A stretch of DNA of 64,000 nt. Source: Odoribacter sp. Z80. GTDB lineage: Bacteria; Bacteroidota; Bacteroidia; Bacteroidales; Marinifilaceae. The notes under the pieces were generated by a model. It ran no database searches, had not been told where the DNA came from, and saw only the letters and a program-made list of their open reading frames with translations. The DNA lies in contig NZ_QWEL01000006.1 in NCBI RefSeq assembly GCF_009935865.1, positions 62,001 through 126,000 of the forward strand. The letters are read 5' to 3'. Numbering within the stretch: position 1 is the stretch's first letter; the number at the start of each line of letters is the position of its first letter. This document shows positions 5,498-57,511 of the stretch, piece by piece. A program made the translations under genes and the position numbers.

Positions 5498-6631
5498 ATG
5501 CGTTATTATATTATTGCCGGAGAGGCTTCCGGAGATTTGCATGCTTCTAATCTGATCCGGGGATTGCGGCAAGAGGATCCAGAAGCGGCAATCCGGGGAT
5601 GGGGGGGAGAATTGATGGAGCGGGCTGGCTGTGAGATTGTGCGGTATTACAAGGATACGGCTATCATGGGCTTTGTTACTGTGGTGAGAAACCTGGGAAA
5701 AATCAGGGAAAACATCCGTTTGTGTTGTGAAGACATCCGGGAATGGCAGCCAGATGTGGTGATTTTAGTGGATTATGCGGGTTTTAATTTGCGTATTGCC
5801 CGTTTTGCGAAAACAATCGGATTAAAGGTGTTTTATTATATTTCTCCTAAATTATGGGCCTGGAACACCGGAAGGGTAAAAAAGATTAAAAGGTATGTTG
5901 ACCGGATGTACACTATTTTCCCCTTTGAAACGGAGTTTTATAAACGATACGGTTATCCGGTGCAGTATGGCGGGAATCCTTTGGTGGATGCCATTGCCGA
6001 ACGTCCTTGCCGGGAAGAGACTTTCGAAGAATTTATCCGCGCCAATGATCTTCCTGATAAGCCGATTGTTGCTTTATTGGCGGGCAGCCGGACTCAAGAA
6101 CTGAAATATGTGCTTCCCACGATGTTATCCATGGTCAGTCATTTCCCCGATTATCAATTTATTATAGCTGGAGCGCCTTCCATGCAGCAAAAGGATTACA
6201 TGCCGTATGTGAAAGAGATTCCGGTGCGGATTGTGTACGGAGAGACTTACCGTTTGGTGAAACAGGCTAAAGCCGCTTTGGTTACGTCCGGAACGGCTAC
6301 ATTGGAAACTGCTCTGTTGAGAACGCCTCAGGTGGTTTGTTACAACGGTGAGGGAGGGTGGTTGTCTTATTATTTGTTCAAGTGGTTTGTGAAGGTAAAA
6401 TATATTTCTCTGGTAAACCTGATTTTCGGCGGGGAACTGGTCCGTGAACTGATGATGCATCACCTTACGGAACAGAATGTGCTTCGGGAGTTGTCCCGCA
6501 TTTTACATCAGGAACAAGACCGGGAAAGAATCGTTCAGGGGTACGATCAGGTTATTGAGCGGTTGGGTGCTCCCGGAGCGTCGGGACGTTTTGCCCGGAT
6601 GATGGTCCGGGATTTGAGAGATATTCTTTAA
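5498..6631 (+). CDS. lpxB: lipid-A-disaccharide synthase
   Basis: GT19 enzyme at the inner face of the cytoplasmic membrane that joins UDP-2,3-diacylglucosamine and lipid X to form the lipid A disaccharide. The 377-residue protein opens with YYIIAGEASGDLHAS, the family signature, and contains the conserved ISPKLWAW and LLAGSRTQE segments and the late SGTATLETAL motif of the UDP-sugar pocket. The frame extends 20 codons upstream, but the promoter motif and family alignment place the start at 5498. Its last four bases overlap the convergent PCMD gene. Confidence 0.95.
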   Translation: MRYYIIAGEASGDLHASNLIRGLRQEDPEAAIRGWGGELMERAGCEIVRYYKDTAIMGFVTVVRNLGKIRENIRLCCEDIREWQPDVVILVDYAGFNLRIARFAKTIGLKVFYYISPKLWAWNTGRVKKIKRYVDRMYTIFPFETEFYKRYGYPVQYGGNPLVDAIAERPCREETFEEFIRANDLPDKPIVALLAGSRTQELKYVLPTMLSMVSHFPDYQFIIAGAPSMQQKDYMPYVKEIPVRIVYGETYRLVKQAKAALVTSGTATLETALLRTPQVVCYNGEGGWLSYYLFKWFVKVKYISLVNLIFGGELVRELMMHHLTEQNVLRELSRILHQEQDRERIVQGYDQVIERLGAPGASGRFARMMVRDLRDIL

Positions 6632-7608
6632 TATACCAATCCTACATTGTCAATCCAGAATTTTGCATCCGGGGTACCGATGTATGCTCCGCCGTGTCCG
6701 GAAGAAAAGCGTAGGATAATGTGGGTAGGTTGAGTATCAGGGTCTGCCCATCCGATTTCCTGGATGGGAACCATTTTACCCTTGCTGTTCAGGCAATGGG
6801 GTATATTTTCTTTTTGGGTTAATTTCATGTATGGTTTAAAAAAATCTTTGTCGGTGATGTTTCCGTAATGGACGGGAATACGATGGCCGTTTTGCCATCC
6901 GGCGGTTTCTTTATCATATCGTTCATAGGCTGTTCCCACCCGTTTGGCGAAGATGTTTCCTTCCTCATCTTCCCAGCGGTATTGTAGCAAGAGACAGGCT
7001 TCTGCGTTGTTCTGTTCCGGAATATTTACGATTTTACTGAATCCTGTGGCTTTGATTTGTTCTCCTCCCGGAGTGACTTTATAATCAAACTGAAGGGCTT
7101 TCGGACGTTTGGTGAAAGGGATGTTGTTGTTGAGTTTGCTTTGGGGATTCTTGGTATCTCGGACCGGTTCTATGATTTCTCCGAGAAAGATGGTGCCGGT
7201 TGCTAAAACGGAGATATTGATTAATCCGAGCACCTTCACTTTTTCCATACGGGTTTCGAGGCGGGCGCAATGCCCCTGTTCTCTTTTTTCCGGAAAAACC
7301 GTTACACTGGCTTTGTATATCCCGCTGACCTTTGCCATGACGGTTGAAGTGGCCCACGGCGATTCTTCTCTTTGGTAGGGTGTGTTATTTTTCAGGGTAT
7401 CGCCGGAAGCTATTTCGTAGAGGTATTTAGTGTTTCCTCCTATAATCAGAGATTCATCGACCACTCTTACCATCCAACGGTCCATATCTCCGAAAGCAAT
7501 GGGTACTATGATTTCTTTCCGGTTTTGTGCGGTCAGAGAGACTGGTAAAAAGCAGGAGAGAATAAAAAAACAGAGAACGTTTTTTATGGAAGAGGAAATT
7601 TTTGTCAT
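6628..7608 (-). CDS. exported PCMD-domain protein (putative carbohydrate metabolism domain)
   Basis: The 326-residue protein has a signal peptide ending near residue 27 (SLTAQ). The remainder resembles the PCMD family of Bacteroidetes surface proteins: GTIFLGEI near the middle followed by a PFTKRPKALQFDYK segment is the usual arrangement, and the C-terminus (PTHIILRFSSGHGGAYIG, then DNVGLVY) is typical of its jelly-roll-like fold. The function of PCMD is not established; many members sit in polysaccharide loci, but this one stands alone. No lipobox Cys is seen. Confidence 0.7.
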   Translation of the reverse strand: MTKISSSIKNVLCFFILSCFLPVSLTAQNRKEIIVPIAFGDMDRWMVRVVDESLIIGGNTKYLYEIASGDTLKNNTPYQREESPWATSTVMAKVSGIYKASVTVFPEKREQGHCARLETRMEKVKVLGLINISVLATGTIFLGEIIEPVRDTKNPQSKLNNNIPFTKRPKALQFDYKVTPGGEQIKATGFSKIVNIPEQNNAEACLLLQYRWEDEEGNIFAKRVGTAYERYDKETAGWQNGHRIPVHYGNITDKDFFKPYMKLTQKENIPHCLNSKGKMVPIQEIGWADPDTQPTHIILRFSSGHGGAYIGTPDAKFWIDNVGLVY

Positions 7609-7786: not shown

Positions 7787-7796
7787 TCATATAAAA

Positions 7797-9128
7797 ATGA
7801 AACTGTCAGATATGAATTATTCTTGGAAAGGTCTTGTGGCCGGATTGTTGTTGTCTGTCACTATTTCTGTCGGTGCGCAGGAAAAAGTGGCAGTCTGGGA
7901 TTTTAAATCCTGTTTGTCGTATGCCCGTAGTCAAAATATTCAGATTCGGAAGAGCCGCGTAGCTTCGGAGGAAGGGAGTGAAAATGTCTTGCAAGCTAAA
8001 GCTGAGCGTTTGCCATCGCTTTCTTTTTCTACTTCTCACGATTATACCAATCATCCCCGTCCGGAAGGCGGAGCCAGGAACTCTTATTCCGGTTCGTATG
8101 CATTGAGGTCGTCTGTTTCTCTTTATAACGGAGGAAAGTTGAAAAAGAACATCCAGCAGACGGAATTGCAGTCTCAGGTTCGGGAATTAGCTGTCGAAGA
8201 GGCGGAAAATGAGATTGAAGTGGCTGTTATGCAAGCTTTTGTACAAATATTGTATATCCATGAAACGGTACAGATCAATGCTAATACGGTGGAAGTATCC
8301 AAAGCGCAGTGGGAGAGAGGAAAAGAATTGCTGGCGGCCGGTTCTTTATCACAGGCTGATTTGGCCCAGTTGGAGGCCCAGTATACTTCGGACCAGTATC
8401 AATTGGTGGTTGCCCGTACTTCTTTGAGTACGGCCCAATTGGAATTAAAGCAGTTGCTGGAGTTGGGGATAAACGACCGGATGGAGTTGTCTATGCCGGA
8501 GATAACGGAAGAACGCGTTTTAACTGTGTTGCCTGTAAAAGAGAGTATTTACCTGACCTCTTTGGGGGTTATGCCGGAAGTAAAATATAATCGTTTAAAT
8601 GTTGAGATTGCCGGAATAGAAAAATCCAGGGCATGGTCGGGTTATTTACCCAGCCTGAATCTTTCGGCAGGGGTGGGTACTGCTCATTCATCCGGTATGG
8701 GAAGAGGTTTTGGCACGCAGGTCAGAAACAATTGGAATGAGAGTGTTGGGTTGACCTTGAGTGTTCCGATTTACAGCAATCGTACCAATCGTACGGCAGT
8801 GAATCTGGCCAGATTAAATATCGAAAATGCAGAACTGGATTATGAAAATGTGCGGAAAGGCTTGTTGAAATCCATAGAGACCGTGTATCAGGATGCCATT
8901 TCTGCACAGGAGCGGTTTCGTTCCGCGCAGGAGAATTTAAAGGCCACCGGTTTATCTTTTGAACTGACACAACAACAGTTTTCGTTAGGAATGAAAAATA
9001 CCGTAGAGATGTTGACCGAAAAGAATCATTTTTTGTCGGCTCAGCAAGAATTGGTCCAGGCCAAATACATGGCCATCCTGAATATTCAGTTACTGAACTT
9101 TTATCAGGGAAAAGAAATGGATTTGTAA
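7797..9128 (+). CDS. TolC-family outer membrane efflux protein
   Basis: Outer membrane channel subunit of a tripartite exporter. From 7797 the protein is 443 residues, with a signal peptide ending SVGAQ and two outer membrane efflux (OEP) repeats: FKSCLSYARSQNIQIRKSR opens the first, and the long heptad-like helices around residues 130-210 and 325-420 form the periplasmic tunnel. The ATG at 7812 (MNYSWKG) fits the promoter position better and is a real alternative. It heads an operon with the membrane-fusion protein, ATPase, permease and two-component genes. Confidence 0.9.
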   Translation: MKLSDMNYSWKGLVAGLLLSVTISVGAQEKVAVWDFKSCLSYARSQNIQIRKSRVASEEGSENVLQAKAERLPSLSFSTSHDYTNHPRPEGGARNSYSGSYALRSSVSLYNGGKLKKNIQQTELQSQVRELAVEEAENEIEVAVMQAFVQILYIHETVQINANTVEVSKAQWERGKELLAAGSLSQADLAQLEAQYTSDQYQLVVARTSLSTAQLELKQLLELGINDRMELSMPEITEERVLTVLPVKESIYLTSLGVMPEVKYNRLNVEIAGIEKSRAWSGYLPSLNLSAGVGTAHSSGMGRGFGTQVRNNWNESVGLTLSVPIYSNRTNRTAVNLARLNIENAELDYENVRKGLLKSIETVYQDAISAQERFRSAQENLKATGLSFELTQQQFSLGMKNTVEMLTEKNHFLSAQQELVQAKYMAILNIQLLNFYQGKEMDL

Positions 9129-9155
9129 AGACGGATAACCCTAAAAAAATATATA

Positions 9156-53468: not shown

Positions 53469-53499
53469 AAAATTTTCTACAAAAACTGTAGAAAATTTT
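53469..53499 (-). terminator. terminator of the NVEALA-propeller operon
   Basis: AAAATTTTCTAC and GTAGAAAATTTT pair over 12 bp with a 7-base loop. On the minus strand it follows the propeller gene stop by about 27 bases. AT-rich and without a separate T-run, but its own arm ends in TTTT. Confidence 0.6.
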
Positions 53500-53525
53500 C
53501 TAACAATGTGCTAATCTTTGTGATA

Positions 53526-54593
53526 TTACAGATTTAAAGTAATGATTTCTGCTTTATCACGTTCCTTTGACAGGGCATAGATCGTTTGCTGTTCCTCGTC
53601 ATAACTGATGGACGAACAATTTAACGGTAGATGATAGGTACGTACATGTGAGCCGTTCCAATCAAAAATCAGTATGATCTTTCCCTGATCCACGTTATTT
53701 TTGTGTTGTCGGTAAGTTTTACCGGAATATAACGTAAAAATATAATCTTTTGATACTGTCATGTCGCAAAACCCAAAGAGATTGTTTGAAGAATAAGAAA
53801 CAGGATGCCACATTCCTTTTCCGCGTCCCCGTTTATGGAGATTTATTTTCGGGCGGCTCAGATTTACCTCATTTACCCGGGTCAATTGGTTTCCTTTGAT
53901 GGTGCAAATGTCCAGACAACCGTTTTCTACATTTGCACAGGCGAAACGTGTTCCGTCGGGATGGGCGGCCAGATAATTGCTGGCATAACGAATACTCTTT
54001 AAAGTGTCGCTCAGACTAAGGTCCAGACAGTCGGGATAGCTGACACTATAGTTATCGGTATTCAGGGCGGGGTTCGTGCAGCAATAACGACCTTCGGTAT
54101 AAATACCGGTAGAGATCAGTTGATTGTTGACACGAATTGCACCTAATGTAGTTTTGCCTCCGCCGGACACGGTAGTAAAGATCGGCAATACCCTTGGGAA
54201 CAAGCCTTCGTTCAAATTAAATTCAACGAGGTTCCCCGTACCAAAATCAAAGGCGGAGGCAATATCTTTATGTAATGTTAAACCTAAATAGTAAAGTCCT
54301 TCTCCCTCTCCGTCACCAGCCGGTACAAGGCGCTGAATCTCTTTGCTATTGTGGTTGTAAATAGCAAACCGGTATTTGCTGGTAGGTGTGAGGATGATAA
54401 ACAATGAATCTTTTTTCCGGATTTTAGTCGGATTGATGATACCTAATTCTTCTAAATTGATGCTTTCGCTCTGGGCATATTGCAAAGAATTGGCTTTGGT
54501 ACGAACCAACGGTGTAAGTTCGTCCGCTTGCTCTGTCTCTGCCTGACAACCCGCAAGGACCAAAAGGATAATATAGGGTATAAGTTTTTTCAT
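53526..54593 (-). CDS. TolB-like six-bladed beta-propeller lipoprotein (BF3886-like)
   Basis: The 355-residue protein has a lipobox VLAGC (Cys16) and then repeated beta-blade patterns with DSLFII, YRFAIYNHNSKEI, YYLGLTLHKD and the late IILIFDWNGSHVRTYHL. This matches the Bacteroidales TolB-like propeller family that regularly accompanies NVEALA peptides. It is probably displayed on the cell surface or in the periplasm and may bind or sense the neighbouring peptide; this is inference. Its ATG overlaps the NVEALA stop by four bases. Confidence 0.8.
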   Translation of the reverse strand: MKKLIPYIILLVLAGCQAETEQADELTPLVRTKANSLQYAQSESINLEELGIINPTKIRKKDSLFIILTPTSKYRFAIYNHNSKEIQRLVPAGDGEGEGLYYLGLTLHKDIASAFDFGTGNLVEFNLNEGLFPRVLPIFTTVSGGGKTTLGAIRVNNQLISTGIYTEGRYCCTNPALNTDNYSVSYPDCLDLSLSDTLKSIRYASNYLAAHPDGTRFACANVENGCLDICTIKGNQLTRVNEVNLSRPKINLHKRGRGKGMWHPVSYSSNNLFGFCDMTVSKDYIFTLYSGKTYRQHKNNVDQGKIILIFDWNGSHVRTYHLPLNCSSISYDEEQQTIYALSKERDKAEIITLNL

Positions 54594-54838
54594 TCTTTTA
54601 TTGCTAATCCTGGAAATGTTCCGACTTCTCCATCACTGTTTACACCTGAGCAAAGTGCACCTTTTTCAGTACATGTTGCTTCTGGTTTGGAAACTTCCGG
54701 TTGTTCTCCTTCTGCAAGAGCTTCAATGTTGTTAAAAGTTAATTTTATTTTTTCATTATTGTTTTGAAAAAACAGATTTATAAATAGAGTAATTAGTATT
54801 ATACTAACACCTATTCCTATAGCTATTTTTTTCTTCAT
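54590..54838 (-). CDS. NVEALA-family small exported peptide
   Basis: The 82-residue protein has a Lys-rich start, one hydrophobic segment (about 5-24) and the family motif as NIEALAEGE (37-45). The remaining C-terminal part (46-82) has two cysteines, Cys56 and Cys63, that could form a disulfide, and Gly/Ser-rich residues. NVEALA peptides are a Bacteroidetes family of unknown function; the motif may mark a processing site. Overlap with the propeller gene shows that they are made together. The histidine kinase gene is divergent, 105 bases away. Confidence 0.8.
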   Translation of the reverse strand: MKKKIAIGIGVSIILITLFINLFFQNNNEKIKLTFNNIEALAEGEQPEVSKPEATCTEKGALCSGVNSDGEVGTFPGLAIKE

Positions 54839-54863
54839 ATCTTCTAATTAACTTTCAACGCTA

Positions 54864-54871
54864 CAAACTTA
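54864..54871 (-). promoter_or_regulatory. -7 element TAAGTTTG for the NVEALA-propeller operon
   Basis: Exact TAnnTTTG match on the minus strand, 26 bases upstream of the NVEALA start. The -33 is weak, as may be expected if an activator is needed. Confidence 0.45.
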
Positions 54872-54882
54872 GAAAAGATTCT

Positions 54883-54890
54883 TAATTTTG
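54883..54890 (+). promoter_or_regulatory. -7 element TAATTTTG for the kinase-regulator operon
   Basis: Exact TAnnTTTG match 54 bases upstream of the kinase ATG. It lies back to back with the NVEALA -7 element, with only 11 bases between them, so a bound regulator could affect both. Confidence 0.4.
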
Positions 54891-54943
54891 TAACGGTGTT
54901 GTACATTCTAAAATATACCCATTTTGAAAATAATTAGAAAATA

Positions 54944-56311
54944 ATGGAAAAGAATATAAGAGTAATCGGGCAGATTTCTGTAATTCTGCTATTTGTTGTA
55001 TTTCTCTGGCAAGGATCTTGGTTGTATAAAGTGCGGAAAATGAGAGTTGAAGAAATACATGAGAATGCAAGTTATATGTTGGTGGGTATATTAGATGATT
55101 ATTTGAGTGATGAGAAAATAGCTTTGTTAACTGAATGCCAGTTAAAAATATCATTAAGGCCACAAAAGGATATTATTGTATGGAGTTATAATGATAAATT
55201 AATGCACGTTTCATCTTCTTCGGTAGAGAGTTATCAGAAGATGGAATATTTAGTGACTTATGATTGTTTATTTGAGAAACAGTTATTAAATATAAGTAAA
55301 ATAGATTCTTTATATAAAAAAGTATTGGAAGAGAAAGATATATTTTTTCCATATACATTAACTGTACTTGATAGATTCTCAGACCAATCTGTAGTTTCTT
55401 CAGGGATTTTATCTGCAAAATATCAGGATATTGAGACGAAGCCGATAGATTTAGGTTATGATTACAAGCATCAGATTGTAGCTGTTTTTGAGATTCCCTG
55501 GATATTTCGTTCTTTGAAATGGCATTGGATTAGTGAGGCTGTATTTTTGGTTGCTTTTGTATGTTGTTTGATATGGCAATGGCGGTGGATGAAGATGACG
55601 TGGCAGAATGCTATTGTACAAACGATGGGGATGGCTCATTTGGAACATGAATTGAAGAAGCCATTGGGAGTGATTGTTTCTGCTATTTCCCGAATTGTCG
55701 GTAAAGGAAACCAGGAATTGACGGTGAATGAGCGAAATTCTTTGAGGATGGCAAATGCCCGTTTGGAAAAGATGGCTGATGTGATGGATACGATGTTGGT
55801 GGCTTTAAAGACCTCCAGTCTGACGCTGAGACGTGAACGTCTGGATTTACAGGCCGAATTGGATATGGTGGTGGATATGTTTAAGAATATCAAGTCGCGG
55901 GTTCAGATTCAGGTTCATGTAGCAGAACAACTGGCTTATCCTCTGTTGGATAAGGTATATTTTCATTGTGTTGTGGTCAATTTAATTGATAATGGAATAA
56001 AATATGGTGGCGATAATCCTGAAATAATAGTGAATTGTAGTCAGGAAAATAGTAATTTTGTTTTGTCGGTTACGGACCAGGGGGTGGGTATTCCCCGCAA
56101 AGAACTGAAGCGTATTTTCAGACAATTCTACCGGGTTAAGGATGAGCGGGTGAGTTGTAAGACTGGTTTCGGGCTGGGATTGACTTTTGTGAAGAAAGTG
56201 GTGGATGCTTATCATGGAGAGATAAAGGTGGAAAGTGAATTGGGCCGGGGAAGTACATTTACTGTTATATTACCGTTAAATAAAGAAAACGATGAAAGTA
56301 TTGTTTGCTGA
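54944..56311 (+). CDS. transmembrane sensor histidine kinase
   Basis: The 455-residue kinase has a first helix (about 8-26), a periplasmic sensor region (about 27-185), a second helix (about 187-210), a dimerisation domain with phosphoacceptor His235 in HLEHELKKPLG, and a C-terminal ATPase (N-box VNLIDNGIKYGG, G-boxes VTDQGVGIP and TGFGLGLTFVKK). The 5' third is much more AT-rich than its neighbours. It overlaps the regulator gene by 20 bases. Position next to the NVEALA/propeller genes suggests that it senses or controls that system. Confidence 0.92.
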   Translation: MEKNIRVIGQISVILLFVVFLWQGSWLYKVRKMRVEEIHENASYMLVGILDDYLSDEKIALLTECQLKISLRPQKDIIVWSYNDKLMHVSSSSVESYQKMEYLVTYDCLFEKQLLNISKIDSLYKKVLEEKDIFFPYTLTVLDRFSDQSVVSSGILSAKYQDIETKPIDLGYDYKHQIVAVFEIPWIFRSLKWHWISEAVFLVAFVCCLIWQWRWMKMTWQNAIVQTMGMAHLEHELKKPLGVIVSAISRIVGKGNQELTVNERNSLRMANARLEKMADVMDTMLVALKTSSLTLRRERLDLQAELDMVVDMFKNIKSRVQIQVHVAEQLAYPLLDKVYFHCVVVNLIDNGIKYGGDNPEIIVNCSQENSNFVLSVTDQGVGIPRKELKRIFRQFYRVKDERVSCKTGFGLGLTFVKKVVDAYHGEIKVESELGRGSTFTVILPLNKENDESIVC

Positions 56312-56954
56312 AGATGATGACCTGACGGTGTGTGAAGTGAAAGAAGTGTTGGAGGAGGCCGGTTTTGAGGTGATTGTAGCTAAAGACGGAGGCGAGACGT
56401 TGAAGAAATACGAAGAAACTCAGCCGGATGTGATTATCCTGGATGTGGATATGCCTGTTTATAATGGTTTTGATGTATTGCAGCGAATCCGGGTAATAGA
56501 TCAGAGAACTCCTGTAATTATTTACAGTTCACTAAAAGATGAGGCCCATATCATAGAAGGTTTTGATAACGGTGCGAGTGTCTATCTGCTGAAAGACTAT
56601 ACGCCGGCAGCTGTTGTTACTCAAGTGAAAAGATGCCTGAACAAAGTTTCTGACGGAGTGATTGAATTGAGTGAACACGTTTGTTATGATATTGCCCGTG
56701 ATTTGTTGATCATTGGAGAGCAGACCGAAAAATTGAGCAAACTGGAAAGTAAGATTTTTCTGATTCTGTGTAAGAACAGAAATAAGTTGACCTCCCGTAA
56801 GCTTCTGTTGACGGTTGGATGGTATGGTGATGACAGTAGTTACCATTTGCAGTTGAATAAAATCATCAATAAACTGCGGAATCTGTTAAAATCTACCGAC
56901 GAAGTATCCATTACTACTGATAAAGGTAACGGTTATTGGCTGATTACAGGTTAA
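56292..56954 (+). CDS. OmpR-type response regulator
   Basis: The 220-residue protein has a receiver domain with acidic EDDD (7-10), phosphoacceptor Asp51 in VIILDVDMP and Lys near LLKDYT, and a C-terminal winged helix of the trans_reg_C type (about 140-218, KLESKIFLILCKNRN and TDKGNGYWLI). It is the partner of the kinase whose gene it overlaps. Likely targets are the divergent NVEALA operon and possibly the convergent thioredoxin-like/GH36 genes. Its stop overlaps the neighbouring gene by four bases. Confidence 0.93.
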   Translation: MKVLFAEDDDLTVCEVKEVLEEAGFEVIVAKDGGETLKKYEETQPDVIILDVDMPVYNGFDVLQRIRVIDQRTPVIIYSSLKDEAHIIEGFDNGASVYLLKDYTPAAVVTQVKRCLNKVSDGVIELSEHVCYDIARDLLIIGEQTEKLSKLESKIFLILCKNRNKLTSRKLLLTVGWYGDDSSYHLQLNKIINKLRNLLKSTDEVSITTDKGNGYWLITG

Positions 56955-57511
56955 AGTGAAGCTCCATGGACTCCCATTCTTTTCAGATATAATTTCCATA
57001 ATTTTTCGTTTGTGGCGGGATTACCGATGAGTACGACCCGGTTGGCAGAGTCCAGCAGAAAAGTTTGAAATCCTCTTTCTATGGGTAAGCGGTTGAGCTG
57101 CATGAGTTTTCCTTCCCGGTCGTAAAAAATGGGGATTTTACATTTGTTGATTTGTTGTAGGGTTTCCAGTTCTTCGTAAAATTCGACTGTGGCAATGAAT
57201 AAAAAGGCTGCATCCAGACGAAGGCTGTCCGCTTCCCTTTTTCTGAGTTGCCACTCATAGAATTTTGTCTGACAGGCTGTACAGCCTGTGGTGTCTATGT
57301 AATTCAGTATTTTGTATTTCTTTTTAAATAATTCCGGACAGACTGTATCTCTACCGAATATTTTGGCTTCGAGGTTATCCGGGAAAAGGATTTCTTTGTG
57401 TTGCCAGTTTTTTACGAGGCGTGCAATTTCACGTTTCCGTCTGTTGCAACTGGTGAGAATGGCGGTAACCGACAGAAGTAAAAGGAGGATAGAGAGGGCT
57501 TTTTTCATCAT
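56951..57511 (-). CDS. thioredoxin-like lipoprotein with CTAC motif
   Basis: The 186-residue protein has a lipobox LTSC (Cys22) and a thioredoxin-like core: YIDTTGCTACQTKFYEW carries the CxxC pair Cys77 and Cys80, and the late FQTFLLDSANRVVLIGNP corresponds to the last strands. The cis-Pro of classic thioredoxins is not obvious (IERGFQTF), so redox activity may be altered. Its ATG overlaps the GH36 stop by four bases. Similar proteins occur near propeller/NVEALA genes, which could connect the two operons. Confidence 0.65.
   Translation of the reverse strand: MMKKALSILLLLLSVTAILTSCNRRKREIARLVKNWQHKEILFPDNLEAKIFGRDTVCPELFKKKYKILNYIDTTGCTACQTKFYEWQLRKREADSLRLDAAFLFIATVEFYEELETLQQINKCKIPIFYDREGKLMQLNRLPIERGFQTFLLDSANRVVLIGNPATNEKLWKLYLKRMGVHGASL

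Follow-up and report, generated by a model that had tools for sequence, protein, structure and literature searches.

The window analysed here is a stretch of 64,000 nucleotides from Odoribacter sp. Z80 (GCF_009935865.1, contig NZ_QWEL01000006.1, positions 62,001–126,000 of the forward strand), and all cassette coordinates are given as window positions. A peptide–propeller operon, in which the two genes overlap by four bases (54590–54593), lies divergent from the genes for a sensor histidine kinase and a response regulator, which overlap by 20 bases (Table 1). Convergent with the regulator gene is a gene for a thioredoxin-like lipoprotein that had been overlooked in an earlier, sequence-only reading of this DNA. 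Half of the cassette loci (16 of 32) contain a homologue of this gene, whose product is probably a fifth part of the cassette.

Table 1. Features of the cassette in the Odoribacter sp. Z80 window
Feature	Position	Strand	Size	GC
TolB_like six-bladed propeller lipoprotein	53526–54593	−	355 aa	
NVEALA peptide precursor	54590–54838	−	82 aa	
Divergent promoter region	54839–54943		105 bp	23.8%
Sensor histidine kinase	54944–56311	+	455 aa	
OmpR-type response regulator	56292–56954	+	220 aa	
Thioredoxin-like (CTAC) lipoprotein	56951–57511	−	186 aa	

Components of the cassette

The sequence-only reading had described an exported peptide with a NIEALA motif and two cysteines, coupled to a six-bladed propeller lipoprotein, and both assignments were confirmed. 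The peptide scored 32 bits against the NVEALA profile (PF14055, cut-off 27), and its leader consists of an N-terminal hydrophobic membrane or signal segment and NIEALA-EGE, with NIEALA at residues 37–42 (54713–54730). Cysteines 56 and 63 delimit a C-x6-C core, CTEKGALC (54650–54673), and the tail ends in PGLAIKE. The propeller scored 59.1 bits against the TolB_like profile (PF15869, cut-off 29.2) and carries the lipobox LAGC, a lipobox-like pattern being found in 30 of 32 propeller homologues. Its AlphaFold2 model (pLDDT 78.7, pTM 0.80) was matched by VIA-align to six-bladed folds, namely the designed protein Pizza6 (6ren; Z 18.8, rmsd 3.4, 242 aligned) and BT_3476 (3tc9; Z 18.3, rmsd 3.5, 252 aligned). 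To our knowledge, neither Pfam entry names a function.

The divergent pair likewise proved to be a two-component system, with catalytic and phospho-acceptor features in the kinase and a paired receiver/winged-helix regulator. The kinase matched HATPase_c above cut-off, at 87 bits, and HisKA only below its cut-off, while the regulator matched Response_reg (84 bits) and Trans_reg_C (32 bits), both above cut-off. Residues H235 and N346 and those of the G-box were invariant in 17 kinase sequences, and the kinase model aligned with HK853 (6rh7; Z 22.6, rmsd 4.7, 229 aligned); this comparison was taken up by the catalytic part (residues 215–448). The periplasmic sensor domain, coded by 55031–55507, matched no family in Pfam and, in a sequence search of solved structures, gave no match below E 0.5; by our own reading, its order of strands and helices looks PAS/PDC-like. 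The best NCBIfam match of the regulator was RprY, of the RprX/RprY system of Bacteroides, but at 116.6 bits this lay far under the cut-off of 370, and the regulator is thus not a member of the RprY equivalog. Two 521-aa proteins, which we take to be RprX-like, matched the sensor profile only at E 0.001–0.007 and over 41–43 of 156 positions.

The 5′ end of the kinase gene had been noted as AT-rich and read as a hint of separate history. The dip was confirmed, with a GC content of 30.5% there and 41.4% in the rest of the gene, but the kinase genes of relatives start in the same way (L051, 28.2/42.1; L052, 28.2/40.3; L055, 30.5/41.4; with smaller dips in L053, 42.5/47.5, and L062, 34.9/40.0), and this argument for a separate history of the kinase was therefore rejected.

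Conserved linkage and the kinase-linked peptides

The sequence-only reading had proposed a search of relatives for a conserved neighbourhood of NVEALA, propeller and kinase genes, and such a neighbourhood was found. A divergent kinase gene lay within 1.2 kb of 31 of the 32 homologous propeller genes, two of these kinases being fragments, and the single exception sits at a contig start. The linkage held down to 25% kinase identity. Small exported peptides encoded beside their kinase and regulator are known from the three-component systems of Gram-positive bacteria, and this conserved gene adjacency is seen here too. Three tandem kinases that adjoin cassettes lack a peptide of their own, two dual-sensor kinases in genome G002 have no peptide seen alongside, and a regulator gene is missing next to the G002 cassette at 640 kb.

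The peptides linked to kinases form a subfamily. A C-x6-C core with an internal glycine was present in 30/30 kinase-linked peptides and in 6/72 other NVEALA peptides, a Fisher comparison that is descriptive only because the linked set itself supplied the motif and the rows are related; the same core was also found in L086 and L091, which were read separately from these counts. Peptide divergence tracked sensor divergence beyond the divergence of the kinase core (partial r 0.29, 0 of 2000 permutations, 29 units). With the sensor accounted for, it also tracked the divergence of the kinase core (partial r 0.20, p 0.0015), which is what plain co-inheritance would give. The modest covariation of sensor and peptide would suit an internal inhibitor, a small membrane peptide or propeller that holds the sensor off within the same cell, like the accessory proteins of other envelope kinases and with no extracellular signalling, and the hydrophobic N-terminal segment could indeed remain in the inner membrane beside the kinase. 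What distinguishes the linked peptides, however, is the C-terminal two-cysteine core and not the membrane segment, and the frequent lipobox-like pattern of the partner propeller also argues against this explanation, which we consider unlikely.

It could also be that the cassette, like bacteriocin loci, encodes an antibacterial peptide together with its immunity lipoprotein and a switch of the two-component type. The pairing of small cysteine-containing peptides with a nearby thiol oxidoreductase is reminiscent of the bacteroidetocin loci of Bacteroidetes (PMC6671954), and the other NVEALA peptides are diverse, often richer in cysteines and arrayed. According to that source, bacteroidetocins have a double-glycine leader of 15–16 aa, an ABC transporter with a peptidase domain and, in the two main peptides, four cysteines, whereas the cassette peptide has two cysteines and no double-glycine leader, and no C39 peptidase is encoded at the cassettes. 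The C39 profile (PF03412) gave no match in the window genome (G000), G027 or G035, all of which carry cassettes; of its three matches in G002, the closest to a cassette was about 46 kb away, and its one match in G045 was separated by about 425 kb from the cassette of the same contig. PADLOC, which covers defence and not bacteriocins, found no phage-defence families. The linked peptides, moreover, hold to one core pattern instead of diversifying, and a bacteriocin-like role appears very improbable.

Promoter repeats and a shared sensor domain

The sequence TAnnTTTG is the −7 element of Bacteroidetes promoters. The two face-to-face elements of this type that had been noticed in the shared intergenic region (54864–54871, − strand; 54883–54890, + strand) stood up to alignment with five relatives, the first being kept in 5/5 and the second in 4/5, and a block within the region is conserved in relatives. 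The proposal that the regulator acts on this region drew its support from relatives. Across 25 divergent intergenic regions, direct repeats with a period of 11 bp, the spacing of OmpR/PhoB-type sites, were enriched (combined z 9.3, next period 2.1), but no 11-bp box was convincing in the window clade (L050, L051, L052, L053, L055 and L056; p 0.605–0.99). The window repeat GAAAATA-N4-GAAAATA (p 0.01) was set aside as a regulator box, since relatives do not have it.

G027 has two copies of the exact repeat GGTTGCGAATAGGTTGCG, one at the cassette and the other 6 kb from it, ahead of a transglutaminase-like gene; this was the only second exact site, the exact boxes of G002, G019, G035, G041 and G016 being at the cassette only. 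When one mismatch was allowed, matches to the box and to a backward-pattern control numbered 7 and 3 in G002, 4 and 2 in G027, 1 and 0 in G019, 6 and 8 in G035, 6 and 11 in G041, and 1 and 17 in G016, totals that do not point to a large regulon. Of the six sites in G002 with one mismatch, one precedes an NVEALA–propeller operon that is not linked to a kinase (L131); as a regulator target it is no more than suggestive, because the control pattern gave three matches in that genome.

Five similar peptide–propeller units, in three other Bacteroidales genomes, face a one-component protein in place of a kinase. Like the ToxR/CadC-like transmembrane transcription regulators (PMC10269533), this protein unites an OmpR-type winged helix with transmembrane segments and a periplasmic domain in one chain; it differs from them in that its periplasmic domain shares homology with a two-component kinase sensor and is found beside a peptide–propeller unit. 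The homology was judged from trimmed periplasmic domains because an iterative profile from ToxR-like seeds, which was set aside, drifted into kinases and regulators. The ToxR-like domain matched the first kinase group with a probability of 96.3 (E 1.5e-9, score 60), whereas 20 shuffles of the columns scored no higher than 13.7, and matched the second group, of 16 sensors, more weakly (probability 72, E 3.3e-5, score 35). Judged by these profile comparisons, the same input domain is joined to different outputs. The intergenic regions of the ToxR-like units also show the 11-bp period (z 10.9, n = 5). Of the 21 proteins with the sensor domain in 11 genomes, 16 are encoded opposite a peptide–propeller unit. 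A search of 11 NVEALA-bearing genomes gave no sensor match in G308, G419 or G439 and only a weak one in G438, and NVEALA peptides therefore exist without this sensor.

These data bear on a further explanation, in which the kinase responds to some unrelated cue from the envelope or the host (bile, a cationic peptide, redox or a polysaccharide) and the regulator merely turns on the peptide–propeller operon as a surface adhesin, toxin or binding pair. The divergent repeats suggest regulation and are silent on what is sensed; O-antigen-ligase-like genes in 18/32 cassette loci, transglutaminase-like genes in 11/32, and the two sensor-bearing kinases lacking an adjacent peptide would all suit such an arrangement. 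It leaves unexplained, however, why the peptides linked to a sensor make up a conserved subfamily of their own and why the sensor stays with peptide–propeller units while the output domain changes, and we regard it as possible though somewhat doubtful.

A candidate peptide-sensing module

The interpretation of these data that we favour, although we judge it as evenly poised, is that the cassette is a sensing module linked to a peptide and regulating itself. In this view, the peptide would be made with a membrane or signal leader ending in the A-x-A-like NIEALA motif and probably cut there, yielding a periplasmic or surface peptide of about 40 residues with one C-x6-C loop, whose disulphide is probably handled by the thioredoxin-like lipoprotein. 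The propeller lipoprotein may bind or present this peptide, and the periplasmic domain of the kinase would read the peptide, as its ligand, or the peptide–propeller complex. The regulator would then target the divergent promoter between the two gene pairs, and a neighbouring island gene would be a second target in one relative at least; elsewhere in Bacteroidales the sensor domain is fused directly to a winged-helix domain. Sensing of the peptide by the same cell would fit both the subfamily-specific peptide and the exchange of output domains behind one sensor. What the sequences themselves show is the conserved linkage, the peptide subfamily, the common sensor domain and the repeats, while cleavage, the disulphide, binding and the direction of regulation are inferred.

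The cassette resembles the Gram-positive systems in the peptide encoded beside a kinase and regulator, in local repeats that may be regulator targets in relatives, and in a kinase-linked peptide that has the leader type of other island peptides. It differs in its Gram-negative envelope, its Sec-like leader with NVEALA in place of a double-glycine leader, its dedicated propeller lipoprotein, its periplasmic rather than polytopic membrane sensor and its alternative ToxR-like output. The literature searched held no mention of NVEALA by that name, no paper on DUF4934, DUF5128 or DUF4221, no account of the sensor linkage or C-x6-C subfamily of NVEALA/TolB_like proteins, and no title on such a peptide–propeller–sensor cassette; in a broader search, no title among the matches listed concerned NVEALA or these Bacteroidales propellers. 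The available part of an iron-stimulon paper (PMC10434189) offered nothing usable on the cassette.

The cassette thus looks like an undescribed peptide-linked, self-regulating signalling system of gut bacteria. More tentatively, and with a little less than even confidence, it may represent a Bacteroidales peptide pheromone family, in which a propeller-carried two-cysteine peptide acts on a new periplasmic sensor with a kinase output (Odoribacteraceae and one Prevotellaceae MAG) or a ToxR-like output (other families), and which in some genomes would switch on island genes such as those for transglutaminase-like enzymes and other NVEALA peptides. We know of no established peptide signalling system in the dominant gut Bacteroidales. 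For testing, the cassette supplies a concrete peptide, a domain that may be its receptor, a putative target promoter and outputs of two natural kinds, and it gives the NVEALA peptides a testable role.

Conservation of the cassette

The sequence-only reading had proposed that the NVEALA peptide, its TolB_like propeller lipoprotein and a divergent sensor kinase with its OmpR-type regulator form one signalling cassette, and a conserved neighbourhood was indeed found in relatives: 31 of 32 propeller homologues had a kinase gene in divergent orientation no more than 1.2 kb away. These 32 units comprise the 31 genes found by the propeller profile in 17 of 56 family genomes (E <= 1e-30) and one Prevotellaceae MAG locus (L080; L-numbers denote fetched loci and G-numbers the genomes compared, G000 being the window's own), ten loci (L070-L079) having been excluded because they duplicated records already counted. 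Two of the 31 kinase genes are incomplete: that of L050 is a fragment, split by a stop, and that of L088 is cut at a contig end. Among 115 genomes, the window's own counted, 22 gave an NVEALA match and 13 a close kinase homologue, at 19 places (E <= 1e-40). An NVEALA gene was divergent from 15 of the 19 kinases (12 pairs evident from match coordinates, three more on reading the loci); of the other four, three were paralogues in tandem next to a cassette, and the last lay at a contig start.

By a rule-based call, the regulator directly followed the kinase in 26/32 units. The exceptions were L050, where a regulator is present but the rule passed over it owing to the split kinase; L051, with no regulator adjacent to the kinase; L053, with none in the 937 bases remaining on the contig; L087 and L088, where it lies on the propeller's other side; and L094, a unit at a contig start. 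Identity of the aligned cassette kinases to the window kinase fell to 25-27%, and a second kinase group lay outside this alignment, indicating that the linkage is old. The cassette is real and conserved, and no description of such a combination of peptide, propeller and kinase was met in the literature searched.

Cassette genes in the window
Feature	Position	Strand
NVEALA peptide gene	54590-54838	-
Propeller lipoprotein gene	53526-54593	-
Sensor kinase gene	54944-56311	+
Regulator gene	56292-56954	+

A single PF14055 match was found in the window's genome (2.56 Mb, 47 contigs), together with two TolB_like propellers, each adjoining a cassette-type kinase. The second cassette (L086; G000:C47:88000-102000, propeller 6418-7527, kinase 7793-9151) neighbours DUF1573, transglutaminase-like and O-antigen-ligase-like genes. 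The window propeller has named relatives in MAGs of Odoribacter and in one labelled Bacteroides sp., as well as in Sanguibacteroides and Butyricimonas; matches elsewhere were weaker. The window therefore most likely comes from an Odoribacter-like species. In one G002 cassette an in-frame TAG breaks the kinase gene (L050:6541-7887), reflecting loss or sequencing error. A second kinase-regulator pair, in tandem, also lies beside the cassette in three loci (L050:12064-13389, L052:13535-14815, L055:4376-5695); its sensor domain is the same, and it lacks its own peptide.

Peptide core and sensor domain

The pattern C-x3-G-x2-C or C-x4-G-x-C was present in 30/30 kinase-linked peptides (29 NVEALA-profile peptides of units plus L057, whose propeller is lost at a contig end) versus 6/72 unlinked ones, and a core with exactly two cysteines in 27/30 versus 1/72. 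The Fisher value of 3e-20 is descriptive, since rows share ancestry and the linked set itself supplied the motif. The units L086 and L091 gave no NVEALA-profile match, but peptides read from their DNA carry CPEAGGIC and CVMQRGYC, the L086 peptide keeping the two-cysteine core while the NVEALA motif is lost. The core is thus retained even in the absence of the motif. The motif could be placed by pattern in 24 of the 29 linked peptides, where its start lies at a distance of 32-38 residues from the initial Met; its Ala-x-Ala/Gly/Ser/Thr form may represent a signal-peptidase-type site.

The 37 members of the periplasmic sensor domain gave no Pfam match better than E 0.027. In 11 genomes the sensor profile matched 21 proteins at E < 1e-9, many of them in the profile by construction, so that what informs is how little else matches: 16 faced a peptide-propeller unit, one was a kinase in tandem at a cassette, two were dual-sensor kinases near transglutaminase-like genes (one also near an O-antigen-ligase-like gene) and two, both ToxR-like, lay at a contig end (L180). 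Three further rows reached E 0.001-0.007. The dual-sensor kinases (L181:7232-9397 and L182:6710-8920, G002) carry two sensor copies each and precede a regulator; no peptide was seen alongside. Among the same 11 genomes, NVEALA peptides were also present in G308, G419 and G439, where the sensor profile had no match, and in G438, where its match was weak, so the sensor does not belong to every NVEALA island.

Divergence was compared in seven window-type units (21 pairs; 10 for the regulator, 3 for thioredoxin). Median identity was lowest for sensor (31) and peptide core (37), followed by regulator (39.5), kinase core (44), leader (45), thioredoxin (52) and propeller (56). Across 29 units (L050, L060, L088 and L094 excluded, L057 included), peptide distance followed sensor distance given the kinase core (partial r 0.29), and more weakly kinase-core distance given the sensor (0.20). 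This covariation fits ligand-receptor co-divergence without proving it.

Intergenic repeats and ToxR-like partners

OmpR/PhoB-type regulators bind eleven-base repeats. Of 29 divergent intergenic regions extracted, four shorter than 45 bases were removed, and in the remaining 25 direct repeats of period 11 gave a combined z of 9.3, other periods (6 to 30) reaching at most 2.1. Ten regions had p <= 0.02, including three near-identical Butyricimonas-type sequences and the window's own, which was discounted. The half-site varies among units (TTGTATC, TTGTTCC, GGTTCCT, TGTCATG, GGTTGCG, TTGTCCT). The exact box was found solely at the cassette in G002, G019, G035, G041 and G016; in G027 the exact 18-bp box has two copies, one in the cassette and the other 6 kb off within that island, ahead of a transglutaminase-like gene. 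The window clade's conserved block lies around CAAACTTAG-N4-GATTCTTAATTTTG...TTCTATAATAT, and no clear 11-bp repeat was found in it.

In other Bacteroidales families, 20 NVEALA loci from 16 genomes (a subset of those bearing NVEALA) gave no match to the kinase profile. In five of these loci, from three genomes (L106/L151, L108, L109, L110, L111), a two-cysteine peptide (C-x7-C, not the linked-peptide pattern; all five counted among the 72 unlinked) faces a 351-391 aa protein, with the propeller downstream of the peptide, in L110 not directly adjoining. Read by eye, these proteins have a periplasmic domain between two TM segments, the first of them N-terminal, and no further such protein was present among the 20 loci. 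Pfam comparison of L108 to L111 gave Trans_reg_C winged-helix scores of 37.3 (L111), 26.0 (L110) and 23.7 bits (L109) against a cut-off of 26.2; none was found in L108, whose protein (as L184) matched the regulator profile at 6.6e-6. Their periplasmic domains matched the sensors of the first kinase group (17) with probability 96.3, E 1.5e-9 and score 60, and those of the second (16) with probability 72, E 3.3e-5 and score 35. With the first group, the reversed control and the 20 column shuffles scored up to 13.7. Each of the five intergenic regions carries an 11-bp repeat (p 0 to 0.025), with a combined z of 10.9; period 24 is raised also (z 5.4). Across these families the output thus differs, and the sensor domain remains with the peptide-propeller unit.

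Accessory genes and the proposed function of the cassette

The loci of the 32 units, which are of unequal length, contained thioredoxin-like genes in 16, O-antigen-ligase-like genes in 18, transglutaminase-like genes in 11 and DUF1573 in 9. CxxC was present in 39/40 thioredoxin-like matches across all loci. According to Coyne et al. (PMC6671954), Bacteroides are without general disulphide machinery, and thiol oxidoreductases are present in bacteroidetocin regions; a disulphide role is therefore plausible in the cassette. No C39 peptidase was found in the window's genome, making participation of a bacteroidetocin-type exporter unlikely. In other families a single chain carries both thioredoxin-like and DUF1573 domains (L108:8496-9365, L109:6804-7667, L111:8399-9280, L080:8029-8913); most of the Odoribacteraceae loci read have them as two genes, with the fusion present in L101.

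Wzy_C O-antigen-ligase-like proteins recur beside cassettes (L062, L063, L064, L059-L061, L086, L181), those of L062 and L086 both having weak C-terminal TPR matches in Pfam; peptide glycosylation is a possible role. A signal peptidase I-like gene, recognized by eye, lies beside four cassettes (L050:14245-15123, L052:15213-16088, L055:2973-4013, L062:10736-11590) and could be there by chance or encode a dedicated leader peptidase.

The cassette is very probably a dedicated sensing module that regulates itself locally. That its ligand is the peptide, by itself or together with the propeller, has roughly an even chance of being correct.
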